NCBI GenBank assembly: GCA_008933995.1
Contig: WARS01001600.1
Location: 1,240,001 to 1,304,000, forward strand
From: Datnioides undecimradiatus
Taxonomy: Eukaryota > Chordata > Actinopteri > Lobotiformes > Datnioididae
Direction: 5' to 3'
Length of the DNA stretch: 64,000 nucleotides
Of the stretch, positions 25,578-60,485 are shown piece by piece. Every line of letters begins with the position of its first letter. Positions within the stretch are counted from its first letter, which is position 1. Made by a program: the position numbers and the translations under genes. Below the pieces are notes generated by a model. The model was not told the origin of the DNA, did no database searches, and worked only from the letters and a program-made list of their open reading frames with translations.

Positions 25578-26605
25578 TCAGCCGGGGCGCCTGTAGCAGG
25601 CCTCCTGGTAGGAAGTGGCGTTGACAACACTAAACATGTCTCTCCTGACAAAAGACAGGAAGTTCTTCAGAGGGCAGAGGGGCTGAGTGGCGTGGCGGTC
25701 GTGGGAGCGACAGAAGGTGGTGTGAAATGTCACGTCCTCGCCGTTGTACAGCACCCTGATGAACAGCTCCCTGTCCTTCGCCCTGGACTTCTCACCTTTA
25801 CCAGCTCTTTTCTTCTGCTGTGCCAGCACCGCTGGTGGACTCCTCCACAGTTCAAAGACAACTCTTGCTGCAAACCGCGGGAAGCGGGCCTCCTCCAGCC
25901 CCAGAGCGCTCAGCAACGGGGCCATGGTAACATCGTGGGCCGAAGACAGGGTGAAGACCTCCTCGCCCCCTGCACGAGGCTGTCGGCCCGCCTCACTCTC
26001 CCTGGCAACACGCTCCATCTTGGCGGCTGTGCGGTTGAGGTAGGGGTACATGGCCAGGATGGCGTATTTATGGTACAGCCCCACTCTTCTCCGATCCACC
26101 TCGTCATCAAGCTGCTGTCGACGAATCACAGCAAACTGCTCCATTTTCAGACACGCCCTGGTGCCGCCGTCTCCCATGGGCGCGCAGGGGAATGAGATCC
26201 CGTGGCACAGGTGGCACAGCAGGGAGTCTATGGGGTTTGCGGCTCGGAGCTGGCGGGTGAGCAGACCCAGAGTCCGAGCCATATCGGCGTACGTCCTCTC
26301 AAGCTCGGTGTCGCTCACTCTGAGCCGATACTGCCTCCTCTGCTCTTCCTCCAGGTATCTGTTCCTGGCGGGGCAGTCGCACGCCGAGCCGCAGAACAAC
26401 GTGCTCCACTGGTGCCGCACCGTCAGCTTCGTCCAATCAAAGTCCGGCAAGAAGCCGTAGAGGAAGGCCAGTCCGCTCTGCAGAGTGCGGCTCTTACCTG
26501 TGGTCTCGAGCCACACCTGGCGGGGCGACCAGTCAGCAGGGAGGAGATTAAGACGCTTGTAGGCCTGGTGGAGCAGCTGCCCATTGCGCAGGTGCTGCAC
26601 CACAC
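25578..26605 (-). CDS. pxylp1: PXYLP1 terminal coding exon 5
   Basis: A single 1028-base exon encodes residues 181-521 and the stop at 25580-25578. The acceptor is TCCGTTCTCCTCAG. It carries most of the phosphatase fold: LETTGKSRTLQSG, LRAANPIDSLLCHLCH, the catalytic SSAHD (HD at 403-404), RFPRFAARVVFELW, YNGEDVTFHTTFC and a C-terminal segment with several cysteines suited to luminal disulfides. A lysine/arginine-rich insertion follows FELWRS. The exon is GC-richer than its surroundings, as expected for coding sequence. Confidence 0.97.
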
Positions 26606-27911
26606 CTGAGGAGAACGGAAACAACATTAACATTATACTGGAGGAATGGCGGCCATTAAAGGCTGTGGGACATGAGACACTTTAGACTGATGTGATAGAG
26701 GTAAAGATTAAGTGGTTGAGAGGCAACATGTGTCAGTTCAGAGTTGCTAGGGAACAGAAGAGGTCTGTCTGGTCCTGGTGGGGAGGTCTTGCTTGCCTAC
26801 CTGTCTGTGTGAGCTCTCCCATCTCACAGGCACTGTGGTTGGGCAGACGGGGAACAGAGCTCAGTGGTGACTCCCAGTGGCCGCGCCCTCCCAGGCCCAT
26901 GTGACTGATGAAGGAGTTCAGCAGGGGGTGGGTGGGACTCCTGTGGGAGGTGAACAATAACAGAGTGTTGGAGAGTGCGCGTCGTTTTCAGACGACTGCA
27001 CAAACAAAGCTGGCGATGATGGCGCGAGGTGGTGCCAACACTAAGTCTACACGTACGGAAACAAGTGGTTTTGTCTTCAGCTCAGGCAGCGGTGCAGTGC
27101 ACCACATGTCAGCAAACACACTTCATGGCTCAGATGTTTACAGATACAGATGTAGTCACACGGCTTCACACACACTGTCACTTGGGAGCTTCCTGTTAGA
27201 GCCACAGATACAGCTGTCAGCATCTGAGAGGCAGTTATAGCAACTGCTTCATCGTCCCTGCGGAGTTAAAGCTCGCGGGTCTAAACTCGGTAAACACGTG
27301 TTTTGAGAAACAGGCTCAGGAAAATGAGGCACACAGCATTTTAACAACTCCAAACACTAAAACGTTTCCCTCCACACTGGGCGCAGTTTCCTGTTCTCCA
27401 GTCATCTGACCTGAATTCACAATACGACACAAGATTCATTCAAAACAATCTCTGGCTGCAGCTTCTCAGATGTTAATATTTCCTTTTTTCTATTTATTAT
27501 TAATAATAATACTAATAATGTAAACTGAACCTCAAACACTAATCACTACAGAGGATTGTGTCGTTTGCAGGCCACTTCCTACGTCCACCACCAGGTGTCT
27601 CTGCAACACCACTCTGCTGGACTCACACTGTTCGATATGTGTAGGAGGGAATATGGAAGATGTTGATATAAAATAGATGAAAGAATGTGTTGCCTGGGGA
27701 GACACACTCACATACATGCAGGATGAATGCAAACATGTGCACACACACACACCGACACATGCAGGGATGAGGGCAGCCGGAGGAGCAGTCGGTGATCTAA
27801 TAGATTAGAGATGATTGAAGATTACAGTTTAATATGACAAATCTGTGGGAGCTGCAGCTCGGCTCACTCGGATTAAAAGGAGCATGCACACACACACACG
27901 CGCGCTCTCAG

Positions 27912-31700: not shown

Positions 31701-33743
31701 TCCCAGAGGCAGCTTGTGCCCTTTACTCTGACATGGATTAACGGAAACAGTGGGCATTATCAATATATATATCGATGTATTGCACAGCCATACCACAGGG
31801 GTGAGTACGACGCCCCTCTTCAGTAACTGCTCGACGTCATAGCGTTACATTTTGTGTTTCTCTACATATTTTGTGAGGAACGCGTGTGAACCTGCTGCTG
31901 GACAGGGTGCAGTCGATGGCGGGCCGTTTGGTCTTGGGGATGGAGTAGAGCGGGTAGCGGTCACCATGGCGAATCATCACCTGGACAGACAGCAGCTTGT
32001 AGTCAGCAGGACTGTGACCTGTCAGAGGAGACTCCCATTAGCATCCACACATTTTCACTGTAGCAAGCAGATTAAACAAAGAACCGCTGCTTTGCCATCA
32101 GTGATGGTTTGGTCATTAATTATATAAATAGTGCAGCTTTTATTATGAATCATTTTATTGTGCTAAAGTTCTAATAAACCAAGGGAACACGAGCTGCTGC
32201 ACAGCAGACAGACAGAGCTAACAGGGAAAACTAAAAACCTCTGTGATTAGTTTTTAATCATTTCCATTATCCAATCTACATCATTCCAAACTAAATCTAA
32301 ATCAGATGATGAATGCTTCTTCTTTGGCGACAAAGCTGCCAGTTTAGTGAGCAGCGGCCGCTCTAACTCGTCTCTAACTCGTCTCTAACTCGTCTCAGGA
32401 TCGCCCTGGGCTGTGCTGACTTTTCAGAGGAGCGATGAAAGCCCGGCTCCACGCTGCTCCGCTGGAGAGAGCTCTGCAGCGTTATGGATGATGCAATCTA
32501 GTGGAAATGACTCTCGCGCAATTAACACATCCCCCGAGTCCTGACACACTAAATCTGACATTATTGCTATATTAAGTATTTATACGCTGTCTGTCAAACT
32601 GGGTGACTGCGGCAGCTGAACTTGTTTTTAATGCTGTGACACTTGCTGCTGGTTCATTTATTAGTTAGTGCTGGCCTCGTGAAGTCACTCAGAAATCACA
32701 TACTACATCCACAGGCTCGCAGCCTTTAGTTAGCGGAGACTGTGGCTGTCAGTGTGCAGGCCTCACCCTCCCAGGCCTGCTCGGTGCGGTTGGGGGTGTT
32801 GCAGTACCCATAAGCCTCAGATATGGGGTTGGGCTCCTGGGTGTGAGGCACCGGGAACACTCTCTTTCTGCTCTTCCCTAGAGCCACACCAACACCTCCA
32901 TCTGCAGCCTGGAAGGGTTGCTCCTCCACTATGGGAGTGGTGGGGATCAGGTTCACTGTGGAGGGAGACAGAGACAGGCTCATTGCATGCTGCTTAATAA
33001 CACACATGTGCACCTACAGTCCTTCACACTTACAGCTCTGACAATCGGATAATCCAACCACTTCACTTCCTTCTCTGCCTCCTCTCATGAACAAACATAG
33101 CAGTGATCAGACGGGGACAATGAAGATGAGGAGACAGGAAGATAACAACACACATGCTGGACATATCCCTGTTAACTCATCCCTGGACTTTGACCTGAGG
33201 GTGGCACTGGATGTGGGGACCGTGAATGTCTCTACCATATTTCATGGTGAGCCATCTGACAGCTGCTGAAGAACTTCATGTAGACCAACACATGTCAGTC
33301 TCCCGGTGGTGCCGTAAGGTTTAACGGGCTGACAGACCAACATGGGCAACCCCAGAGAAACATGCCAGCGTGGCTGAAACGTGTTTTGGTGATTGATGAT
33401 GTAAAGGATCATTTCAGGCAGAAATGCAGCCACTAATCCATAAACAGGAAGAAGAAAAGGAAAAGGGTCAACTCCAGGAGCAGCAACTAAAGGCCTAAGA
33501 TTAAGGAAACCTATTCAACTGTAGTTCATCTCCATGTCAACAGCTCTATACCCCCAAACCCCTCAGTGCTGCCCCAGTGTGTTGCCTGGACACCAGTGAC
33601 CCGTGACCTCTGGGAGAGGTGGTCCAATAAGAGCAGAGATGTTGTGGGAACTGGAAGCCCCTTTCACAAAGACCCAACTCTGAGGAGAAAGAGGCTGAAC
33701 CCATACAGCCCTTTGGCAAGACAGATATCTGAATCCTGCTTAT

Positions 33744-33800
<57 letters not shown>

Positions 33801-35174
33801 CATCAGAAATCAAGGCTGGCCAGTCTAGTGTGCAAATATTACATCCTGCTGCAGAGGAACAAGAGAGGCCCTGCCTCCTGGTCATAAAGCACAGAGAGCT
33901 GGCTCTCTCTCTTCGCTGTATCAACCCTCAGACTTAAATCATCTACACAAATGTAGAAGCATACACAGTACATACACACTCCGGCTCATACAGACAGTTC
34001 TCCACCTCCCCTTCTCCCCAGCTCAGCTCAGAAAGCTCACTGAGTTCAGACACGACGACTTTGCAGATACCGACATTTTTAAAATCATCATTAATCAAAC
34101 AGAAATGCATTTTATCAGTTTCAGCCTCCAGTGTAAGGACCTGCTGCTGTGCTTTGCATTCGTCTCAGAGTTAGATAGAGTTTTCTGGAGATTAACACAC
34201 AGGAGCAAACAGTGAAGCAGCTGTGCGGCTGAGCCAGGCACCCTCCAACAGCACGATGGAGACCTTCACTCCTACAGCCATGTCTCACGGCTCAACAGTG
34301 AGACATGGCTGTATCACCTCATCTGAACAGCTGGTGCACAGCTGCTGAGGAGGCTGCGCAGTGTTTTTATTCTAATTAGCTTGTTTGAATAGTTAATACT
34401 GAACTCTGTGATCGCTATTCACATAAACCAAAGAATACTTAAACTCATTAACTTCATGATTAGCGCAGAGAAACCTCCTCAAGTGGGCACAAATGTGTCG
34501 TCTCCTGCTAGAAGAGCCTGACAAGCTTCAACACAGCAGCTGAGGTTTTCAGTTAACTACGTGGTTAAAAGTCATGTGAGGACCTTCTGTATTCTGACAG
34601 ACAGCAGCAAGTTCTTCATCACAAGAGTTTAGATTTTCTATATGAAGATTTCTGCGTAAACTCACCGCTGATGAGGAAGAGGAGAAGGTGTGCAGCCGCA
34701 GCGGAGCCCATTTCGACGACTGTTGGCCAGCTTCAGGTCCAGCCACACACACTGGAGCTCATTCATTACCATAACCTGTCCCCCTCTACGCTCTGTGCCC
34801 CGTCCTCTGCCACCCCCACCCACAGCTAACCATCCACACACGCACACACACATGCGCACACACACACACACACACACACGTCTGCCTGGACCAACCAAAG
34901 TTTTGGAAGCCGGCTCATTCACAGTCACCTACACAATGGGCCTTTTGTAAGTCGCTGCCCAACACTACCAAGTGCATACACAGCTATGGCACACAGAGCA
35001 CACTGTAGCACAGCAACACACTCACAGGAAAGTCGTACACACACACACGCACACACTAAATGTGTTTCCAACTTTCCATCCGCCTACATTAGATCTTACA
35101 GGCACAAAATGAGGCTGAGAGTCAGTTCGGCAACTGAAAATCCTCTTGAATTTGAATGACATAGCACCATACGC

Positions 35175-35211
<37 letters not shown>

Positions 35212-38200
35212 CACTCACAAATACAGAGCTAAACATAGTCCACCCTGTTAAGTCTTCCACCTCGGTGTGCTGGTAAAGGCGCAGCTTGAGTTCGGCCTGA
35301 GGGAATAAGCAAAGAAGCTGTTCTGCCTCAAAAACGCACACAAACAAATTAGCGTCGGCTATCTCGCCACAGAGATCGGCCGCTGAACAGGCCCTCACAG
35401 ATCGTGGCTTGGCCTGAAACTGAGAAGGTGTGTGCCCACTTACCTGACTCCACAGAGGGCAGGCAAATATTGACACAGGCTAAGTAGTGTGTGGGAGGAT
35501 GGACGCGGCAGCCTGCAGCTGTCCATCATTACAGACCCTCTGATTCAGAAATGACAGATGTAACATGAATCATTCTCTCTGTCACATTCACGCCAACAGA
35601 ATCACACTTAATAATTAGTAACGAATCAAAAACAAAGCTACTTAAACTGGGGGACAAACAATCCAAGGCAGATGATCTGAGCACAGATTAACATCCTGAC
35701 AGTAGATTAAACTGGGCACTAACGCTGAGACACTCAGCCAAAACTGGGGACGTGCTGATCAAACTCCTGTGAACTTAACTGAAGTGTCCAAACTAGAGGA
35801 AAAGTCATCACTGAAGTCGGCACGACCATTGGGCAGCAGGGATTTCTGTATAAGTCTGATACTACTGCTGGGCTCTAGGTTACAGCTGTTGGTGGTTCAG
35901 CTCTGCCAGAGAGGGGCATCTTCTCTCATGATGACGGAACATTAATTACAGGAGTCGCATAAAATCACATCTAAATTAAATCTCACATCAATGATCTGAG
36001 CACCTTCACAGATTTGAACCAGCTCCATGAAGTAGCATGTGAAGCTGTACCAGGTTTAACATCCACAGCAGTTGCTTCAGTGTCAGACACATGACATCAT
36101 ATTATATCAACATGTAACAATACAAAACCTAGTACACGATCTGACCACGGTGCAGGCCTGGAGCACAGCTGAGAGTCTGCAGGACTCATCTGCAGGACTC
36201 ATTGCCAGCCGGGCTCAGGATATTTTCCAAAACTGCCACCGGTCAGCAGGTGTCACGGCTGTTACCATGGAAACGTGGCTCTCAGTTCTGAGTTAGCCCG
36301 AGGGCAGGGTGGCTAAGGTTTGGGCTTAAAATAAGTCAGTCATTATTCTGCAGAGCTGCCTTCAATGCAGCAGACTAATCTCTGGATGAAGACTGGCCTT
36401 TTGTTCAGAAACGTATCCAGGTTTCAGGAGCGCTCCCGTCTCTCGTGCGAGGGCACGGCCTCTGTGGCAGACAGCGCAGAGACAATCGGTCTGATTCAGC
36501 GGCGAGTGCGGACACCGTAGGAAGTAAGAATGTGAGGAATGTGTGGAGAAAAGAATGTACAGGGTGCTGGGAGCGCTGCCTGTTTAACACCTAAAGGCAC
36601 TTGTTGATGGAGCACTGTTTTGGAAAATAAACACTATCAAACTGTCTGAGCAGCATCTATCTGAGGTGAGTTTGAGCCTCGAACGTAAACTCCAGGCTCT
36701 CCTCTCCCTCAAACATGCCACATCTGATTCAGTTCATTCCTCTCTGCTTAAACCTCTCTTGTTCCTCACAGATAAGAAACCTTTCCCTCTCTCCTTTCAG
36801 ATCCTCCCATGACATTCCCCTCTCACTGTGAATCTACCGGCACTCCTGAAGCACTTAACTCCCATCAAGCTCTGCTTCACCTTTCCCTTCACTACTGCTA
36901 ACATCTCAAAATAGTTTGCTGCGTCTCTCAGTCACTTTCCCTCTCCTGCAGTCGTCGTCTCTCGTGTTCCTCTTAGCTCCGCGGTCACATTTCCTCTGGG
37001 AGTCCCTCGTCATGTCAATCAGCTGCTGATCGCGCCCTGTGCCGCCGCGTGCGCAGCCATCCAAGTTTTAATCTGAGGTAGCCTGGAGCCACAGAGAGGC
37101 ATTTACTCAGCCATCGATCATCATCAGTCACTCAGTCTCTCACGGTAATGGTCGACAAACAGTAATAAATACATGAATGGGCTTTTCTTAAGAGCACTGG
37201 GGGCTGAGGCAGAAGGTATTACAGAGACACAGACCTCAGACTGGGAGCTGAGAGCAAAGAAGACGATTTTAAAAATGAACAGAAAGGTGCAACAGAAACA
37301 GAAGCTGAGTATCTATTAAACATGAGCAGAAATCCCACACGCTTCTCCAGGATAATGGCTCAAATCCTTCTCTACAGTGCGTCTGATGAATAAATGATGA
37401 CAGCAGCTTTTCTCCAAAAGTAGCACTGATCAAAAAAAATACAGTGAGGTTCTGTTTTGGAGCAGATAAACAAAGTCCTCTAAAAGGAGGAGACCGCATC
37501 AACTCTCCAAGACAGACATGTATGCAAATACCAGCACACTTCCAGTAATTGAGGGGTGGTTTCTCTCATCATGGCGTCTTTCTCTGCCCCGGAGTGTTTC
37601 ACAAAAGGAGAAGATTACAGGGCAGGAGGTGTGTGGGTTTGATAGCGAGGCATTAATAATAACTTACACAGCAACCTCCTCTTGCACGGTCAAGCACACG
37701 TTATTATCTAGAACAGGAGGGTGGGAGGGACTGACGGCTGGGGAGGCAAGTGTGTACGCGGGGTCGCAAAGTGCAAACACCGGATAAGTTCGAGTGAGAG
37801 CCTGCTCACTTCTGCTATCTTACGCCTGATTGTGCACGGCAGTTACAGCAACAGAAGAAGAGAGAAGGGGAAGGGGAAGCTCTCGGTATCCAGAGCTCAC
37901 ACATTTGAGTTGAAATGAGGTGACAGGAAAAAGTTAATGATGGACAGCTTAGGGAATTTGGCAAACATGGAGTCTGAAATACCAGCTCTGTCAGACTGAA
38001 TCCTGCCCTAATCTTGTGTGTGACTGCATGATTTATATGAATCTAATTCTAAATGCTGGTCCAGACACAAGCTAACAATCGCCACAAACACTTTGGGGTT
38101 TTTTTAAGGAAACCACCATAAAATGGCTAAATCTTTTCCATTTCACATCAAAATACTAATTTCCATTTGTATTTCTCGCTCCGCCTGCTTCCTCACCCAC

Positions 38201-38748
38201 TGTTTTTCCAATCACGCCTGCGAGAGCTTGCAAATCACATCCAGTTCAGGAGAGCCTGTCTCCATTTACTGAGCGGCGGTTTCCTCGCATTCACTGTGGC
38301 TGGCAGGGATACGCTGTCTAGACAATACCTCCAGGAGATGCTGAACAATGACTTGATGGGGAAAAGACACAATCGTGTACACCTAGGCATTGCACAGCAG
38401 ATGTGAGAGTGTTACCACAGACTCTCCAGAGGTTTCACAGCATCCAGAGGCCCACTGTTGGTGCTGGATATTTATAGGAAGCCTTTAGAGGATTCTGCTT
38501 TGTTTTCGGTATGAATGGGGTCTGCTCAGTGGGAAAGCCATGAGAGGATATGCATGTATGAACACAGCCACACATGTAGACACATGTGGGGACTTTTCTG
38601 CTGAGCACAACAGAGAGGGAGTGAATATGTAAAGCAGTGGAGCACAAACACAAATGCTGCACTTACAGAACTGCAGGCTCAGACTGATGATGGCCAGCGC
38701 GGCCCCGCCAACCACCACCAGGAGGAGGAAGCGGTTACGAGCCAGCAT
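25578..38748 (-). CDS. pxylp1: 2-phosphoxylose phosphatase 1, five coding exons, 521 aa
   Basis: Histidine acid phosphatase-family enzyme. The family member PXYLP1 removes the 2-O-phosphate from xylose in the glycosaminoglycan-protein linkage region, in the Golgi, opposing the kinase FAM20B. CDS exons read on the minus strand: 38748-38667, 32955-32767, 32018-31892, 26940-26801, 26605-25578. Their phases (1, 1, 2, 1) join without a frame break and give 521 residues; the human protein is about 480. Residues 1-6 are short and basic and 7-26 form a hydrophobic signal anchor, so topology should be type II. The catalytic RHGDR motif is at residues 107-111 and the distal HD pair at 403-404. N-glycosylation sequons lie at N83, N370 and N509. 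The family signature CEMGELTQTG spans the exon 4/5 junction. The extra length is mainly a basic, low-complexity insertion near 434-459. The match to the mammalian protein runs the whole length, so identity is secure; which teleost paralogue it is was not tested. Confidence 0.95.
26801..26940 (-). CDS. pxylp1: PXYLP1 coding exon 4
   Basis: Encodes residues 134-179 after completing R133, entering in phase 2 and leaving in phase 1 (140 bases). It contains SPTHPLLNSFISHMG, WESPLSS and NHSACEMGELTQT, which align closely with mammalian PXYLP1. The acceptor is TTCACCTCCCACAG and the donor GTAGGC (26800-26795). Only 195 bases of intron separate it from the terminal exon. Confidence 0.93.
27912..27940. 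repeat. (AC)n microsatellite in PXYLP1 intron
   Basis: Pure run preceded by ACACGCGCGCTCTC. Confidence 0.95.
28390..28570. other. Conserved-looking non-coding block in PXYLP1 intron
   Basis: Unique sequence with TAATTGGC, CCCAATTACATTAAG and GGGATTATTATCACTG, i.e. clustered homeobox, GGATTA and GATA-like motifs. Confidence 0.25.
28681..28727. repeat. (GT)23 microsatellite in PXYLP1 intron
   Basis: Pure run. Confidence 0.95.
30400..30540. other. Conserved-looking non-coding block in PXYLP1 intron
   Basis: Contains CAATTCAATTTTCATTAATT followed by ACTGGAATTGACC and GAGGTCAAAGATCAAGG (TCF/LEF-like TCAAAG and nuclear receptor-like AGGTCA). The texture resembles a deeply conserved enhancer. Confidence 0.3.
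31151..31190. repeat. (GT)/(GC GT) mixed array
   Basis: GTGCGTGCGTGC-type alternating purine-pyrimidine DNA. Confidence 0.85.
31892..32018 (-). CDS. pxylp1: PXYLP1 coding exon 3 (catalytic RHGDR)
   Basis: Encodes residues 92-132 plus two bases of codon 133. It includes HSPADYKLLSVQVMIRHGDR, the phosphohistidine-accepting motif of histidine acid phosphatases, then YPLYSIPKTKRPAIDCTL. The acceptor is CTCCTCTGACAG. The donor required by homology and phase is GTTCAC at 31891-31886, an unusually poor site after CAG. No better donor keeps the reading frame into exon 4. Confidence 0.9.
32361..32396. repeat. 11-bp x3 minisatellite
   Basis: CTCTAACTCGT is repeated three times without change, then CTC. 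It lies in the PXYLP1 intron between coding exons 2 and 3. Confidence 0.8.
32767..32955 (-). CDS. pxylp1: PXYLP1 coding exon 2 (stem region)
   Basis: Encodes residues 29-90 with split codons at both ends (189 bases, phase 1 to phase 1). It starts NLIPTTP and contains KSRKR at 55-59, the NRT sequon at 83-85 and the ending EQAWEG. This is the luminal stem between anchor and catalytic domain, and the least conserved part of the protein. The acceptor is CCTCCACAG (32956-32964) and the donor GTGAGG (32766-32761). Confidence 0.92.
33745..33799. repeat. (AC)27 microsatellite in PXYLP1 intron
   Basis: Longest uninterrupted CA run in the window. Confidence 0.95.
34273..34313. repeat. Perfect 16-bp inverted repeat, 9-base loop
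   Basis: TACAGCCATGTCTCAC (34273-34288) pairs exactly with 34298-34313 around the loop GGCTCAACA. It lies in the PXYLP1 intron about 350 bases downstream (minus-strand sense) of the candidate alternative exon. Confidence 0.6.
34666..34711 (-). CDS. pxylp1: Candidate alternative first coding exon of PXYLP1 (signal-peptide-like)
   Basis: Inside the intron between coding exons 1 and 2 the minus strand has an ATG at 34711-34709 with G at -3 and G at +4, and an in-frame TGA eight codons upstream. It encodes MGSAAAAHLLLFLIS, then one base before a strong GTGAGT donor at 34665-34660. The exon ends in phase 1, exactly what coding exon 2 (starting 32955) needs, giving ...LFLIS-V-NLIPTTP. The product would be 509 residues with a short, uncharged, signal-peptide-like N-terminus in place of the basic signal anchor. 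The open frame, donor and phase are seen directly; use as an alternative promoter or first exon is inference. It could be coincidental, but the combination is unlikely by chance. Confidence 0.5.
34857..34879. repeat. (CA)n microsatellite
   Basis: Lies about 150 bases upstream (minus-strand sense) of the candidate alternative PXYLP1 exon. Confidence 0.9.
35180..35208. repeat. (AC)n microsatellite
   Basis: Pure run. Confidence 0.95.
36261..36274. promoter_or_regulatory. RFX X-box motif in PXYLP1 intron
   Basis: GTTACCATGGAAAC matches the 14-base RFX consensus with two changes and has the central AT spacer. It lies in the intron between PXYLP1 coding exons 1 and 2, about 1.5 kb upstream of the candidate alternative exon. 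No other promoter element was recognised beside it. Confidence 0.35.
38667..38748 (-). CDS. pxylp1: PXYLP1 coding exon 1 (signal anchor)
   Basis: Encodes residues 1-27 plus the first base of codon 28: start MLARNRFLLL, then a hydrophobic run ending SLSLQF. The mammalian protein begins the same way (M-L-x-R-N-R-F-L-L-L). The donor is GTAAGT at 38666-38661, a near-perfect consensus, leaving phase 1. An acceptor-like CAG at 38814-38816 would make this an internal exon with 65 bases of 5' UTR (38813-38749). Confidence 0.93.
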
Positions 38749-38813
38749 CTTGTCATGTGATTGGTCCGCGTCCCTTTCCGTCAGCCATCCACACCACAGC
38801 CCATCCCTGCAGC
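38749..38813 (-). other. pxylp1: PXYLP1 5' UTR part of exon 1 (putative)
   Basis: On the minus strand a pyrimidine-containing stretch ending TGTCCAG precedes position 38813, so the start-codon exon probably begins there and is joined to one or more non-coding 5' exons further up. The bases just before the ATG read GACAAG, a fair start context. The acceptor was chosen by eye and has no transcript support. Confidence 0.45.
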
Positions 38814-40854: not shown

Positions 40855-41145
40855 CAGACAACTAACTAGATTGTTTAGTAACTACTCTGCATCATGTATC
40901 AATACTCAATTAACTCACAGATATTAATAAACTAATTATTACCTAATAACTCATTAACAGAGGATCCCATTACTCACCACTATTGGGGAAGTATTAACAC
41001 GTCATCAGTTCTTAAGTCGTTCCTGATTGGTTCGTGGCTCGTTTCTAAATTAACTAACCACATATTAATGATTAGCTACTCGGGAGCAGTTAATCATTAA
41101 CTAATGCCTAACTAGGAGTTAGTTCCTCGTCTGTTGCCTGGTAAC
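40855..41145. repeat. Degenerate AT-rich repeat built on TAACTA / ATTAAC words
   Basis: About 290 bases are dominated by short variants such as TTAACTAA, GTAACTACTC (40880 and 41141), ATTAAC and CTCATTA, unlike the flanks. This looks like a decayed tandem or short interspersed repeat. It ends at RFX motif 1. Confidence 0.45.
41133..41145. promoter_or_regulatory. RFX X-box-like motif 1
   Basis: GTTGCCTGGTAAC is an inverted half-site pair (GTTGCC / GGTAAC, one-base spacer) matching RFX-family binding sites. It lies at the end of a degenerate AT-rich repeat, so it may have come with that repeat. Confidence 0.35.
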
Positions 41146-41159
41146 TACTCAAAGTGTAC

Positions 41160-41760
41160 GCCCGCCGTTGTAAAGTGTTGCTATGACAACAGAACGTGGT
41201 CTCGCGGGTAAGCTAGCGACAGTGCTAGTTAACTAGTTGGCTAACGGTTAGCTAAGTTAGCTGCTTACAAGCATTAATAATGCAGGTTAGCCCCAAGCTC
41301 CCACCGGCAGGCGCGCGGAGAGCACTGCCCCTGGAGCTACCGACCTCCCCGCTGTCGTGTCATTTGTCGCGGACTTGTCTAAACTTTATTCCTCGCTACT
41401 TGTTGCTTCCATGTGCGGGACTTGACACACGTCTACGGGCTCGTGCGGAGCTTTGTACCGCGGTTCACCCGAGCGGGCGAGCGAGCCAACAAATTTAAAA
41501 GCTTCAGCCGCCGCAACGATACTCGCTGCAGAAGACGAGCAGACACTCAGAGAGGATGGTTTAACAGCGCAGGGCAACATAAAACAGCGTCTCAAACATC
41601 TCCTCTTACCCGCAGGAGGTGTGTGTCTCAGAACCGCAGAGAACCGGGTTCAACACTTGAATCCAGCGCGTCGGTGTCTCCGGTACTACAACACATCCAC
41701 GGGCACTACCGACTGCCGACAAAGCTGCACAGACCGGCGTCAAGTCAAACGTAACATGCA
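41160..41760. promoter_or_regulatory. CpG-rich promoter-like block between the two genes
   Basis: This is the most CpG-dense part of the spacer, bounded by AT-rich DNA. It begins just after two RFX-type motifs. It holds a plus-strand donor-like CGG|GTAAGC near 41208 and overlapping unrecognised open frames on the plus strand, followed by AATAAA at 41787-41792. It may be the distal promoter of PXYLP1 (minus strand; donor-like sites at 40978|GTGAGT and 41943|GTAAGT could end non-coding 5' exons), a plus-strand non-coding transcript, or both. Direction cannot be settled from sequence. Confidence 0.45.
41177..41190. promoter_or_regulatory. RFX X-box motif 2
   Basis: GTTGCTATGACAAC differs at two positions from the symmetric 14-base X-box GTTGCCATGGCAAC. 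It sits 31 bases after motif 1, at the edge of the CpG-rich block, the distance from a promoter at which X-boxes of ciliary genes are usually found. Confidence 0.45.
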
Positions 41761-42057
41761 CCAGTCTGTCAAACAATAGCTGTCAAAATAAAGGTAGTCT
41801 GTGAAGGTGCCACGTCTATGGTCGGATACGGGACGCAGGAGGATGCAAATCTAATAATCATGTCAGTGATGCATTTATTGAACTTCACATATGCAAAAAC
41901 CTTTAGGGAACACCTCTCCTTAGCAAACCACCACACACTTACCTCCTCCTGCAGACTGAGCAGCGGCAGGGCATTTCAGAGAACAAAGGCACATTAGAGC
42001 CGACCGTGTGATCTTATTTTGAAAGTATAGCGTATTGATTTCCGGTTTGCTTTATTC

Positions 42058-56800: not shown

Positions 56801-59800
56801 TGGTGTTATGTAACCACCACAGAGCTGCTGGGGTTACTTACTGACACGGAGGCATGGGGGGGGTTCATGGTAGGTCCCGTTCATCTACACTGCACTTTCT
56901 CAGCAGTGCCTGCAGGGAAACGTGGCAACGGCAGCAGCAACTTGGAAACACTGTTTGCTCCATGTCTTGGAAATACCGTCAATGTCTGCAGTTAGATAAT
57001 AACAGTCCTGATCATTAATTACCCCCCCCCCGACAGCAGCAAAGTGGGGGCTAATGGCAGTGGGCTGCAGAAAGCAGGTGCCAGTGCTAAGCATACGTGG
57101 AGTGTGTTGTTAGCATCTCACATGAATGAATGCTGACGCAGCGGGCAGTGGTAGGTGAAGGCAAGCAGGCCTCCTGAGCTGTGACGCACATGTACAGATG
57201 AGCGCTGTCCCACGATGTGACTGATGAGCTTCAAGCATCATTAACAGTCCCACTAAGCCTATTAGACAAAGCAAGCGCGTCGCGCAGTGTGCAGCTGGAC
57301 AGACAGACACATTTGTGTGTGGACACCGGTATGAACGTGATCATTAGAAGCTTTTAATTAGTGAAAACAGTCGAAGACGTGTGCTTTTCCTGCTCAATGG
57401 CCTCTTTGTCTAACTAGGCCGATTTGCTGAGACTGTCGGTTCTGCTCTCGGCTTTACACTCCATGAATTTTTAAAGCTCATTAAGCTGAACCTGACATGG
57501 GGCAGTTTTATGTGTTAATGTAGTGTAATTAATAAGATACATCGCAGTCGGAGGCTCACAGCCGACTGGAACTAATTAGCTTAGCCCCGAAACACAAAAA
57601 CATGGCATTTATAACTTGTTTTGTTCGCGCCACTGAAACGCATTCAGACCCTTTTTGTGTTTCTCTCCCTGCAGAGCAATCTACTTTGCTGCTTACTCCA
57701 CTGCCAAAGAGAAACTGAACGGTGTGTTGGAACCCGACTCCACACAGGTACACATGGTGTCGGCTGGAATGGCAGGTAACTATATATATATATATATGAG
57801 GCCACATTCACCGCCATGCAAGGCTTATTTACAGACTGTAACCAAGTGAACATTTCCATCATGTTAGTCTCAAGGTGCAGGGTAATAAACCCGGTTAGCT
57901 TAGATGAACAGTGGTGTTGCATGTAAGACGGTGGGGCTGCTCTACATTTTGCAGTAAACATGGATCCACAGAGAGCAGGCGGTGGTAGAACCAGTCTGTG
58001 TCATCGGGTGCAAAGGATTTGTCTTCTGAGATGGTGCAAACTAACCCCACCGCTCTCTTCCTGAGGACCCCTGTCTATCCACAAACAAGCTTATCCCGTT
58101 CCCCTCACCTTTGGCAAGAATATACTGCCAGCTCAGCGATCGGAAAACAGCTTCACTAAAAGCTAAAGATTTAAATACCGACTCATCATTCTCTGTGTAC
58201 GTCAAAGGTGTGCTATCTGATCCAGCTCTGACTGCCACACGTTATAATGTAGGTCAGCCAGGCAGCTACAGAGTGTGCGTGTGTGGGTGACATGTGGGTG
58301 ACGAGTTCACAGTGGGACTACTTTGAGCGCACCGTGACTCAGACTTTTCAACGACCCGGTCAAGGTCGGCCGTTTGGTCAGGACGTACGTCTCCTGCGGC
58401 CGTCCACATATTGTTCAGTGTGAGGCCTGACTGAGCTGAGCCGACAGGTGATGAGGTGTCAACAGTGCAGCGAGCGGACGCGCCTGTGCAGCGCCACGTC
58501 ATACCCACAGCAGAGGTCAGGGCTCGCTGCGGCGGTGGCGAACTACAGTTATACTTGATTTCCCCCGCCGAGCCCGTCCAGCAAGACATTCGCCTGAAAT
58601 TTGCATTCATGTCCAAACCCATCCTGAAAACTTTGTCTCACTTGTGTCTTTAATTATCACTTTTAAGTTAATTACTGTTTTTCTTTTAACATCAAGGGAT
58701 TTAATTTAATTAACAAGCCGTCAGCTGTCCCTTCTGCTGTCTGGGTGGGGGCTGATCGTTTCACCTGGGACTGGGACATGGTGGGTTACATCCTGTGGGG
58801 TAGCAGGGGAACTGAAGTGGTTGCATGCCGGTCATTTTGCTGCACAAAAGCCTGTGTGTGTTTTAGGCTTTAACTCTACCGTAGCTCTCCTCTCGCAAGG
58901 GCATGAGACCCCCGCACCACCAGGGGTCTCTAGCTGCATCTGTGAGGAGTAACTTGGGTCTGCGTGAGTACTCACCACAGATCTGTGCTTCTTCCTGTAT
59001 CTGGTTCTTCTCTTTCTCTCTGTGCCTGTCTGTCCTCTACTCCATCACCACGTAGGACTTTGCATAACGAGCAGGTTTTCACAGTTGCTTGTACAACATT
59101 CAGTTGTTCCCCTATTAGCACACATAGTGTAGACAACAGAGGGGCTGCCTCGCTGCCTCTGAGCTGCCTTTATGACTTCACATCTCATTTTATTTATCAG
59201 AAGAGCATCTTTACATTGTAACTGTAACGACATGATCGACAGCATTTACCCCTCACTTAGTCTGTGGACAGTTTATTCAACCACTGGCAGCTTCACAGTA
59301 GATTTAAAACACAAGATACGATTTAAAACAAAGTCTAATTGTGTTGTTTCTTCCTCTGCAGGTTTTACAGCCATCACAGCAACCAATCCGATATGGCTCA
59401 TAAAGACCCGGCTCCAGCTGGATGCAAGGTGAATATGACCGCGTGGCCGGGTCGAGAGCTTTGCAGAGACTGACAGCTGAGGGTCTGTCTGTCTGACGTG
59501 TTGCTCGTTCATGCAAACAATGAATTTCCACAAACTCATTATGAGTCTTCTTCATATAAACATTTAGCGTTGAGCTCTGCACCGCCACGGCTGCAGCCTC
59601 TGTGATAGCATCAAAAGACACCGCGCCCAGCGGATGTGTGCGCACAGCCACGAGTCTGAGTGAAGAGCCAGAACGCAGAAGTCATGGTGCAGCCACATTA
59701 CGTTCAGTGCACGGGGGGCTTTGGGAACTGCACGTGACTCAGGTCAGCTGATCAGTGGATTGAGTGGAGGTCGTCACCGGTGCGAGGCGTGATCCTGTAA

Positions 59801-60485
59801 GGCGTCTGTGCTGGAGCAGAAACCACGGGGGGGGGGGGGTCATGTTAGTCGTTAGTCAGAGTGTGACTTTAAGGAAACGTGTGTCGTCTGTGTGTGTTCG
59901 CAGGAATCGAGGCGAGCGAAGGATGAGTGCGTTTGAGTGCATGCGGCGGGTGTATCGGGCAGACGGCCTGCGAGGCTTCTACAGGGGCATGTCGGCATCC
60001 TACGCCGGTATCTCAGAGACTGTGATCCACTTTGTGATCTATGAAAACATCAAACGCCGCCTCTTGGAGGCCAAGGCACCGCAGAACATGGACGAGGAGG
60101 AGGAGGCGTCCAAAGACGCCTCAGACTTTGTGGGGATGATGCTCGCTGCTGCCACCTCCAAGACCTGTGCCACATCTATCGCATATCCTCATGGTGAGTG
60201 TGGGTGATCATGGGTGAGCTCATCCGGGCTGTTTGATTGGTTCTTCTCCTTTTCAACCGCTTGTTTGTTTGTTTTCCCGCTGCCCTTGCAGAAGTGATCC
60301 GCACCAGGCTACGTGAGGAAGGCACCAAGTATAACTCCTTCTTCCAGACTCTAAGAACAGTGCCCAAAGAGGAGGGTTACCGCGCACTGTACCGCGGCCT
60401 CACCACCCACCTGGTGCGACAGATCCCCAACACCGCCATCATGATGTGCACCTACGAGCTGGTGGTTTACCTCCTGAACGGTTAA
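50847..60485 (+). CDS. slc25a36: Mitochondrial pyrimidine nucleotide carrier SLC25A36, seven coding exons, 311 aa
   Basis: Mitochondrial carrier family member. SLC25A36 (PNC2) moves pyrimidine and guanine (deoxy)nucleotides across the inner mitochondrial membrane. CDS exons: 50847-50887, 52750-52914, 55310-55387, 57675-57775, 59362-59428, 59904-60193, 60292-60485. They total 936 bases, 311 residues plus TAA, the same length as the human protein, with every phase consistent. The three carrier repeats carry PLEVVK (26-31), PIWLIK (138-143) and PHEVIR (246-251). The second lacks the usual acidic residue, with Trp in its place, as in SLC25A33/36 generally. The start [14 protein letters not shown] separates it from SLC25A33. 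An acidic run, DEEEEASKD, lies at 214-222 in the matrix loop before the third repeat. Teleosts often keep two copies (a and b); which one this is cannot be told here. Confidence 0.96.
50888..52749 (+). other. SLC25A36 intron 1
   Basis: 1.86 kb. An (AGCT)n run lies near the start; otherwise unique sequence with no exon seen. Confidence 0.85.
50918..50943. repeat. (AGCT)n tetranucleotide, SLC25A36 intron 1
   Basis: Self-complementary GCTA/AGCT units starting 30 bases after the exon 1 donor. Confidence 0.9.
52750..52914 (+). CDS. slc25a36: SLC25A36 coding exon 2
   Basis: Encodes the end of the first glycine pair and [20 protein letters not shown], the first carrier signature, then the variable [20 protein letters not shown] loop up to LHFLK. 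The acceptor is CTCTCTGCCAG. The donor is AA|GTGGGT, acceptable but not strong, leaving phase 2. Confidence 0.93.
52915..55309 (+). other. SLC25A36 intron 2
   Basis: 2.4 kb of unique sequence. Frames at 53520-53891 and 54151-54531 are not recognised. Confidence 0.85.
55310..55387 (+). CDS. slc25a36: SLC25A36 coding exon 3
   Basis: A 78-base exon encodes [20 protein letters not shown] and GVAPS, the matrix helix and second transmembrane helix start of carrier repeat 1. The acceptor is TTGTTTTCAG and the donor GTAAGC; phase 2 on both sides. Confidence 0.95.
55388..57674 (+). other. SLC25A36 intron 3
   Basis: 2.3 kb. Contains one X-box-like motif (55944). No extra exon is needed, since phase 2 joins directly. 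Confidence 0.85.
55944..55957. promoter_or_regulatory. RFX X-box motif in SLC25A36 intron 3
   Basis: GTTGCCATAGTAAC matches the X-box consensus at 12 of 14 positions. It is in the third intron of SLC25A36, away from any recognised promoter; it may be an enhancer site or chance. Confidence 0.3.
57675..57775 (+). CDS. slc25a36: SLC25A36 coding exon 4
   Basis: Encodes (R)[20 protein letters not shown] and then [13 protein letters not shown]. The acceptor is TTCTCTCCCTGCAG and the donor GTAACT. A (TA)n run begins six bases after the exon end, so the donor abuts a repeat whose length can vary. Confidence 0.95.
57776..59361 (+). other. SLC25A36 intron 4
   Basis: 1.6 kb, starting with a TA repeat; nothing else recognised. 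Confidence 0.85.
57781..57797. repeat. (TA)n next to SLC25A36 exon 4 donor
   Basis: Begins six bases after the exon end, so it overlaps the region bound by U1/U6. Confidence 0.9.
59362..59428 (+). CDS. slc25a36: SLC25A36 coding exon 5
   Basis: A 67-base exon encodes [20 protein letters not shown] and A, the second carrier signature with Trp where most carriers have Asp or Glu. The acceptor is TTCCTCTGCAG and the donor GTGAAT; enters phase 1, leaves phase 2. Confidence 0.94.
59429..59903 (+). other. SLC25A36 intron 5
   Basis: 475 bases with a G-run at about 59828-59839 and a GT-rich 3' end. Confidence 0.85.
59904..60193 (+). CDS. slc25a36: SLC25A36 coding exon 6
   Basis: The longest exon (290 bases) covers [20 protein letters not shown], the [20 protein letters not shown] segment, the acidic loop and [20 protein letters not shown] up to YPH. 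The acceptor is TGTGTGTTCGCAG, pyrimidine-poor because it ends a GT-rich stretch. The donor is GTGAGT, phase 1. Confidence 0.95.
60292..60485 (+). CDS. slc25a36: SLC25A36 terminal coding exon 7
   Basis: Encodes the third signature (PH)[14 protein letters not shown], then [37 protein letters not shown] and [10 protein letters not shown] before TAA at 60483-60485. The acceptor is CTGCCCTTGCAG. The upstream intron is only 98 bases. Confidence 0.96.

Follow-up and report, generated by a model that had tools for sequence, protein, structure and literature searches.

A signal-peptide-like open frame in the first coding intron of PXYLP1 from Datnioides undecimradiatus, probably a coincidental readout of a pyrimidine tract

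The PXYLP1 Locus

The window analysed here is a 64-kb stretch of the genome of the fish Datnioides undecimradiatus. The gene on its minus strand is PXYLP1 (synonyms XYLP and ACPL2), which encodes 2-phosphoxylose phosphatase 1 and was recognized by its His_Phos_2 domain, its RHGDR and SAHD motifs and the start of its anchor. The open reading frame at 25578-26681 (minus), which contains the 3' end of the PXYLP1 coding sequence, matches the Pfam family His_Phos_2 (PF00328, E = 1e-26), and both catalytic RHG/HD motifs are present, RHGDR at 31971 and SAHD at 25943. Among solved structures, 5cdh alone matched the protein, and only weakly (E = 0.00095). None of the 18 pattern matches to the protein in viral contigs and none of the 279 in prokaryote genome contigs was confirmed as a relative, which is what one expects of a gene from an animal; a plasmid search with positions 34000-36000 as query gave no match. 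On the plus strand, a match to the mitochondrial carrier family at 59764-60207 (PF00153, E = 3.7e-12) marks a neighbouring gene, which from synteny we take to be SLC25A36.

PXYLP1 is a type II protein anchored in the Golgi, and at the present locus the support for this comes from the sequence of the anchor itself. The product of the anchor exon begins MLARNRFLLL, with a hydrophobic segment of 19 residues following MLARNRF. This exon (38748-38667) is very likely the orthologous start of PXYLP1, because the cloning primer for human XYLP given in the available part of PMC12110425, once decoded in this analysis, reads MLFRNRF, against MLARNRF here; together with the His_Phos_2 domain and the RHGDR and SAHD motifs, this resemblance identifies the gene as the same one. 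Three further ATGs precede the main start in the anchor exon (minus strand, 38756-38804). The ATG at 38804 (GGGATGG) opens a frame of 7 codons, the one at 38788 a frame of 11 codons ending just 5' of the main ATG, and the frame from 38756 runs over the main ATG in a different register; from this arrangement, control of PXYLP1 through upstream open reading frames is possible.

Table 1. Positions of the features discussed in the text, in coordinates of the 64-kb window
Feature	Position	Strand	Description
PXYLP1 anchor exon, coding part	38667..38748	-	27 codons MLARNRFLLLVVVGGAALAIISLSLQF and 1 nt, then donor GTAAGT
PXYLP1 coding exon 2	32767..32955	-	phase 1 acceptor after CCACAG; end placed by inspection of the sequence, at GTGAGG
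Candidate first exon, coding part	34666..34711	-	ATG, 15 codons MGSAAAAHLLLFLIS and 1 extra G; 46 nt
Pyrimidine tract with AG, acceptor-like	34668..34689	-	18/20 pyrimidines; encodes hydrophobic residues
Donor-like GTGAGT	34660..34665	-	U1 pairing -8.9 kcal/mol, 4th among the 459 GTs of the intron
Upstream ATGs 34772, 34766 and 34762	34709..34772	-	three ATGs within 61 nt 5' of the candidate ATG
CpG-rich stretch	41001..42000	-	donor-like sites at 41942 and 41609

The Candidate First Exon and Its Predicted N-Terminus

An earlier note on this DNA had proposed that a 46-nt string in the intron between the anchor exon and exon 2 is the coding part of an alternative first exon, and the features on which it relied were all found again: a start codon, an open frame and a phase-matched donor are present together. 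The minus-strand ATG, said to carry G at -3 and +4, lies at 34711-34709 in the context GAAATGG; the upstream in-frame stop is a TGA at 34735-34733, which begins 24 nt 5' of this ATG; and the 15 codons, MGSAAAAHLLLFLIS, are followed as described by one G and then by GTGAGT at 34665-34660. The match in phase also holds, both the candidate and the anchor exon ending in phase 1 and fitting the exon 2 acceptor at 32955. When joined to exon 2, the candidate gives the frame MGSAAAAHLLLFLIS-V-NLIPTTPIVEEQ, which is open throughout that exon. By predicted U1 pairing, its donor (-8.9 kcal/mol) is stronger than the anchor exon's own (-4.9). The best donor-like site of the intron by the same measure is CAG|GTAAGT at 35443 (minus; -11.6), which has no obvious exon; it could be the donor of an alternative exon within the 5' UTR.

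The hydrophobic core of the predicted peptide, LLLFLIS, is encoded by a pyrimidine tract (18 of 20 positions) that ends in CAG two bases 5' of GTGAGT. Its hydropathy is 3.1, higher than the cut-off of 2.5 that we used; among the 159 tracts of the window with at least 18 pyrimidines in 21 positions (both strands), 29 have a frame whose mean hydropathy reaches at least 2.5 over 7 codons. On the scale applied, the best 19-mer scores +2.29 for the new N-terminus vs -2.26 for the anchor form. Judged solely from its hydropathy and by the (-3,-1) rule, the peptide has one plausible cleavage point near its end, at LIS|VN. A basic n-region is absent and a histidine precedes the short core. If used, such a peptide would be a poor membrane anchor and could allow entry into the ER; provided that the exon is used at all, the suggestion of the earlier note that the alternative form would be cleavable, and perhaps luminal or secreted, makes sense.

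Promoter and Upstream Context

Between 27 and 50 kb, the observed/expected ratio of CpG exceeds 0.75 only in the 500-nt bins of 41001-42000 (1.10 and 0.79), and it is 0.45 at 34501-35000, where the candidate lies. The stretch at 41001-42000 likely holds the main PXYLP1 promoter and a 5' UTR exon, judging from its composition and its donor-like sites. No TATA, CCAAT or GC box occurs in the 600 nt 5' of the candidate ATG, though a promoter that lacks all of these may be present; the closest match to a strict Inr, at 35112, is 401 nt 5' of this ATG. Alternative promoters can lack both CpG islands and TATA boxes.

The three ATGs upstream of the candidate differ in their frames. The one at 34772 lies 61 nt 5' in the same context as the candidate (GTTATGG, with G at -3 and +4) and is out of frame; it and the ATG at 34766, also out of frame, open frames of 81 and 79 codons which pass over the candidate ATG and reach exon 2. 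The frame from 34762 stops after 9 codons, before the candidate ATG. The earlier note mentions neither the overlapping frames from 34772 and 34766 nor the pyrimidine tract. For no ATG to precede the candidate in a transcript, transcription would have to start 3' of 34762, so that the 5' UTR could not exceed about 50 nt, and the overlap of the frames from 34772 and 34766 would be irrelevant if transcription began downstream of 34766.

Two other origins for the string were considered and rejected. Inclusion in the main transcript as an internal exon, or as an alternative second exon, is unlikely because the 600 nt 5' of its ATG contain no AG preceded by at least 14 pyrimidines in 20 positions; the two AGs of the searched stretch with such a tract lie at 34668, inside the candidate, and at 34661, inside its donor. 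A repeat origin was set aside after a scan for tandem and direct repeats, in which the direct repeats found were CA-rich and the tandem repeats nearest the candidate were CA repeats at 33745-33799, 34835-34879 and 35174-35219 and one 13-nt repeat at 36176-36202.

How Often Such a Pattern Arises by Chance

The 5,711-nt intron contains two phase-1 ATG frames of 8 to 40 codons that end at GTRAGT, and the candidate is the one of the two with G at -3 and +4 and a hydrophobic core. When the intron was simulated with Markov models of order 1, 3 and 5 (400 copies per order, A or G being accepted at -3), at least one comparable phase-1 pattern appeared in 2.5, 1.5 and 1.8% of the copies, respectively, if a hydropathy of at least 2.5 was required over 7 residues of the exon's own peptide, and in 0.8, 0.2 and 0.5% by a stricter measure (at least 3 over 8 residues, with exon 2 joined). 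These proportions are to be read with the facts that the thresholds were fixed after the candidate had been seen and that the very sequence under test had served to train the models. The frequencies in larger simulated stretches (orders 2 and 4) were 1.3-3.7% in phase 1 and 5.3-8.3% in any phase from 42.0 kb to exon 2 (n = 300 each), and 1.7-11.7% and 13-18%, respectively, for the whole minus strand (n = 60 each).

On both strands and in all phases, the real window holds 54 such frames, four of which are hydrophobic, including the true anchor and the candidate; with G at both positions and a strict donor, the candidate is the only hydrophobic one (1/54). The reversed window, used as a control, gave 44 frames, six of them hydrophobic by the 7-residue measure; with both start-context positions included, none remained by this measure and one by the 8-residue measure. 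Admitting wider donors (GTRNG, N not C) raised the number of phase-1 frames in the intron to 35, with 16 hydrophobic ones, mostly readouts of CA repeats, and the candidate was still the sole frame with G at both positions. The pattern is uncommon for its own intron and phase, and it is not surprising as one pick from a 64-kb window.

Weighing the Explanations

We consider it quite probable that the 46-nt string is a coincidental short open frame in the first coding intron of PXYLP1; that it is not used is what we infer. An ATG with G at both positions would have fallen by chance 5' of a pyrimidine tract, whose pyrimidine-rich codons CTT, CTC and TTC, together with ATC, would be read as Leu, Phe and Ile, so that the look of a signal core arises; GTGAGT would then lie 3' of the tract, in phase 1, also by chance, and PXYLP1 would be made solely from the anchor exon, with its promoter near the CpG-rich stretch at 41-42 kb. 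We favour coincidence because the site has neither a CpG-rich stretch nor a core-promoter motif, because an out-of-frame ATG with G at both positions overlaps the candidate start, and because the core is a pyrimidine tract. It is further supported by the recurrence of such patterns in simulated introns and minus strands and by the fact that the candidate was picked after looking. Against it stand the low proportion of simulated copies of the candidate's intron that show the pattern (only 0.2-2.5%), the reversed-window control, in which 0 or 1 of 44 frames, depending on the measure, is hydrophobic with G at both positions, against 1 of 54 in the real window, and the donor, which ranks 4th of 459 and beats that of the anchor exon.

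A real, used first exon, with an intronic promoter just 5' of 34711 and splicing into exon 2, would account for the frame, the phase, the Kozak context and the donor, all of which suit it, and yet we regard it as unlikely: promoter motif and CpG-rich stretch are both absent at the candidate, and the out-of-frame ATGs at 34772 and 34766 overlap its start. Equally doubtful, taken jointly with use of the exon, is that a short signal peptide, possibly cleaved at LIS|VN, would bring the product into the ER to yield a luminal or secreted phosphatase. The gap in 19-mer score between the new N-terminus and the anchor speaks for this, as it predicts a poor stable anchor, while the missing basic n-region, the histidine within the run and the short core speak against it. 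A tissue-specific intronic promoter giving a PXYLP1 isoform in which a cleavable signal peptide replaces the anchor would be a shade less probable again.

Precedents exist for such a switch. In mouse, according to the available part of PMC1449889 (Davis et al. 2006), the use of a signal peptide varies in 573 of 8,032 multi-isoform units, and the isoforms of 615 fall into distinct membrane classes, so that membrane-class switching is common, and type II and soluble secreted forms from one gene are a known general kind; the cases described there rest on full-length mRNAs, whereas the present candidate is predicted from genomic DNA. For mouse Pxylp1, four RefSeq mRNAs are listed in the accessible portion of PMC8652114. 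Among the matches listed for PXYLP1, ACPL2 or 2-phosphoxylose phosphatase, no title or abstract start concerned an alternative first exon of this gene; the PXYLP1 literature passages at hand made no mention of a second N-terminus, and Acpl2 is absent from the main text of PMC1431701 as far as it was available. A literature search for alternative first exons with a signal peptide in type II membrane proteins of the Golgi gave no match.

The tract and its CAG, two bases 5' of GTGAGT, might act instead as a decoy or ratchet-like intronic splice site and not be translated at all, which we hold to be very improbable. As in recursive (ratchet) splice sites, a pyrimidine tract with AG lies beside a consensus 5' splice site within an intron, and except at 34660-34689, no tract of the window with at least 16 of 20 pyrimidines and an AG has a GTRAGT within 6 nt; a simulated strand (60 copies, order 3) has a mean of 0.017 such sites at 18 or more of 20 pyrimidines. 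This pattern was itself picked after being seen, and at 14 or more of 20 pyrimidines three such sites occur on the minus strand and one on the plus strand. In a true ratchet site the AG is followed immediately by GT, whereas here two bases, CG, come between AG and GTGAGT; retained after the anchor exon, this CG would, as read from the sequence, give TTC TCG TGA and hence a stop. The intron, at 5.7 kb, is also short compared with the known vertebrate ratchet cases.

Significance

On the preferred reading of a coincidental frame, the lesson of this locus is that where a pyrimidine tract supplies the hydrophobic core, an exon is only weakly supported by such a readout combined with a matching phase and a Kozak context. 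Removal of the xylose 2-phosphate bears on the elongation of proteoglycan linkers, and in the available part of PMC12110425, expression of XYLP led to more glycosaminoglycan-bearing decorin and rescued a block of FAM20B. If the exon were real, the choice of promoter would be tied to the place where the xylose 2-phosphate is removed, and the linker xylose could be dephosphorylated elsewhere than at the usual station in the Golgi, or even extracellularly, which would constitute a transcriptional switch for glycosaminoglycan output.
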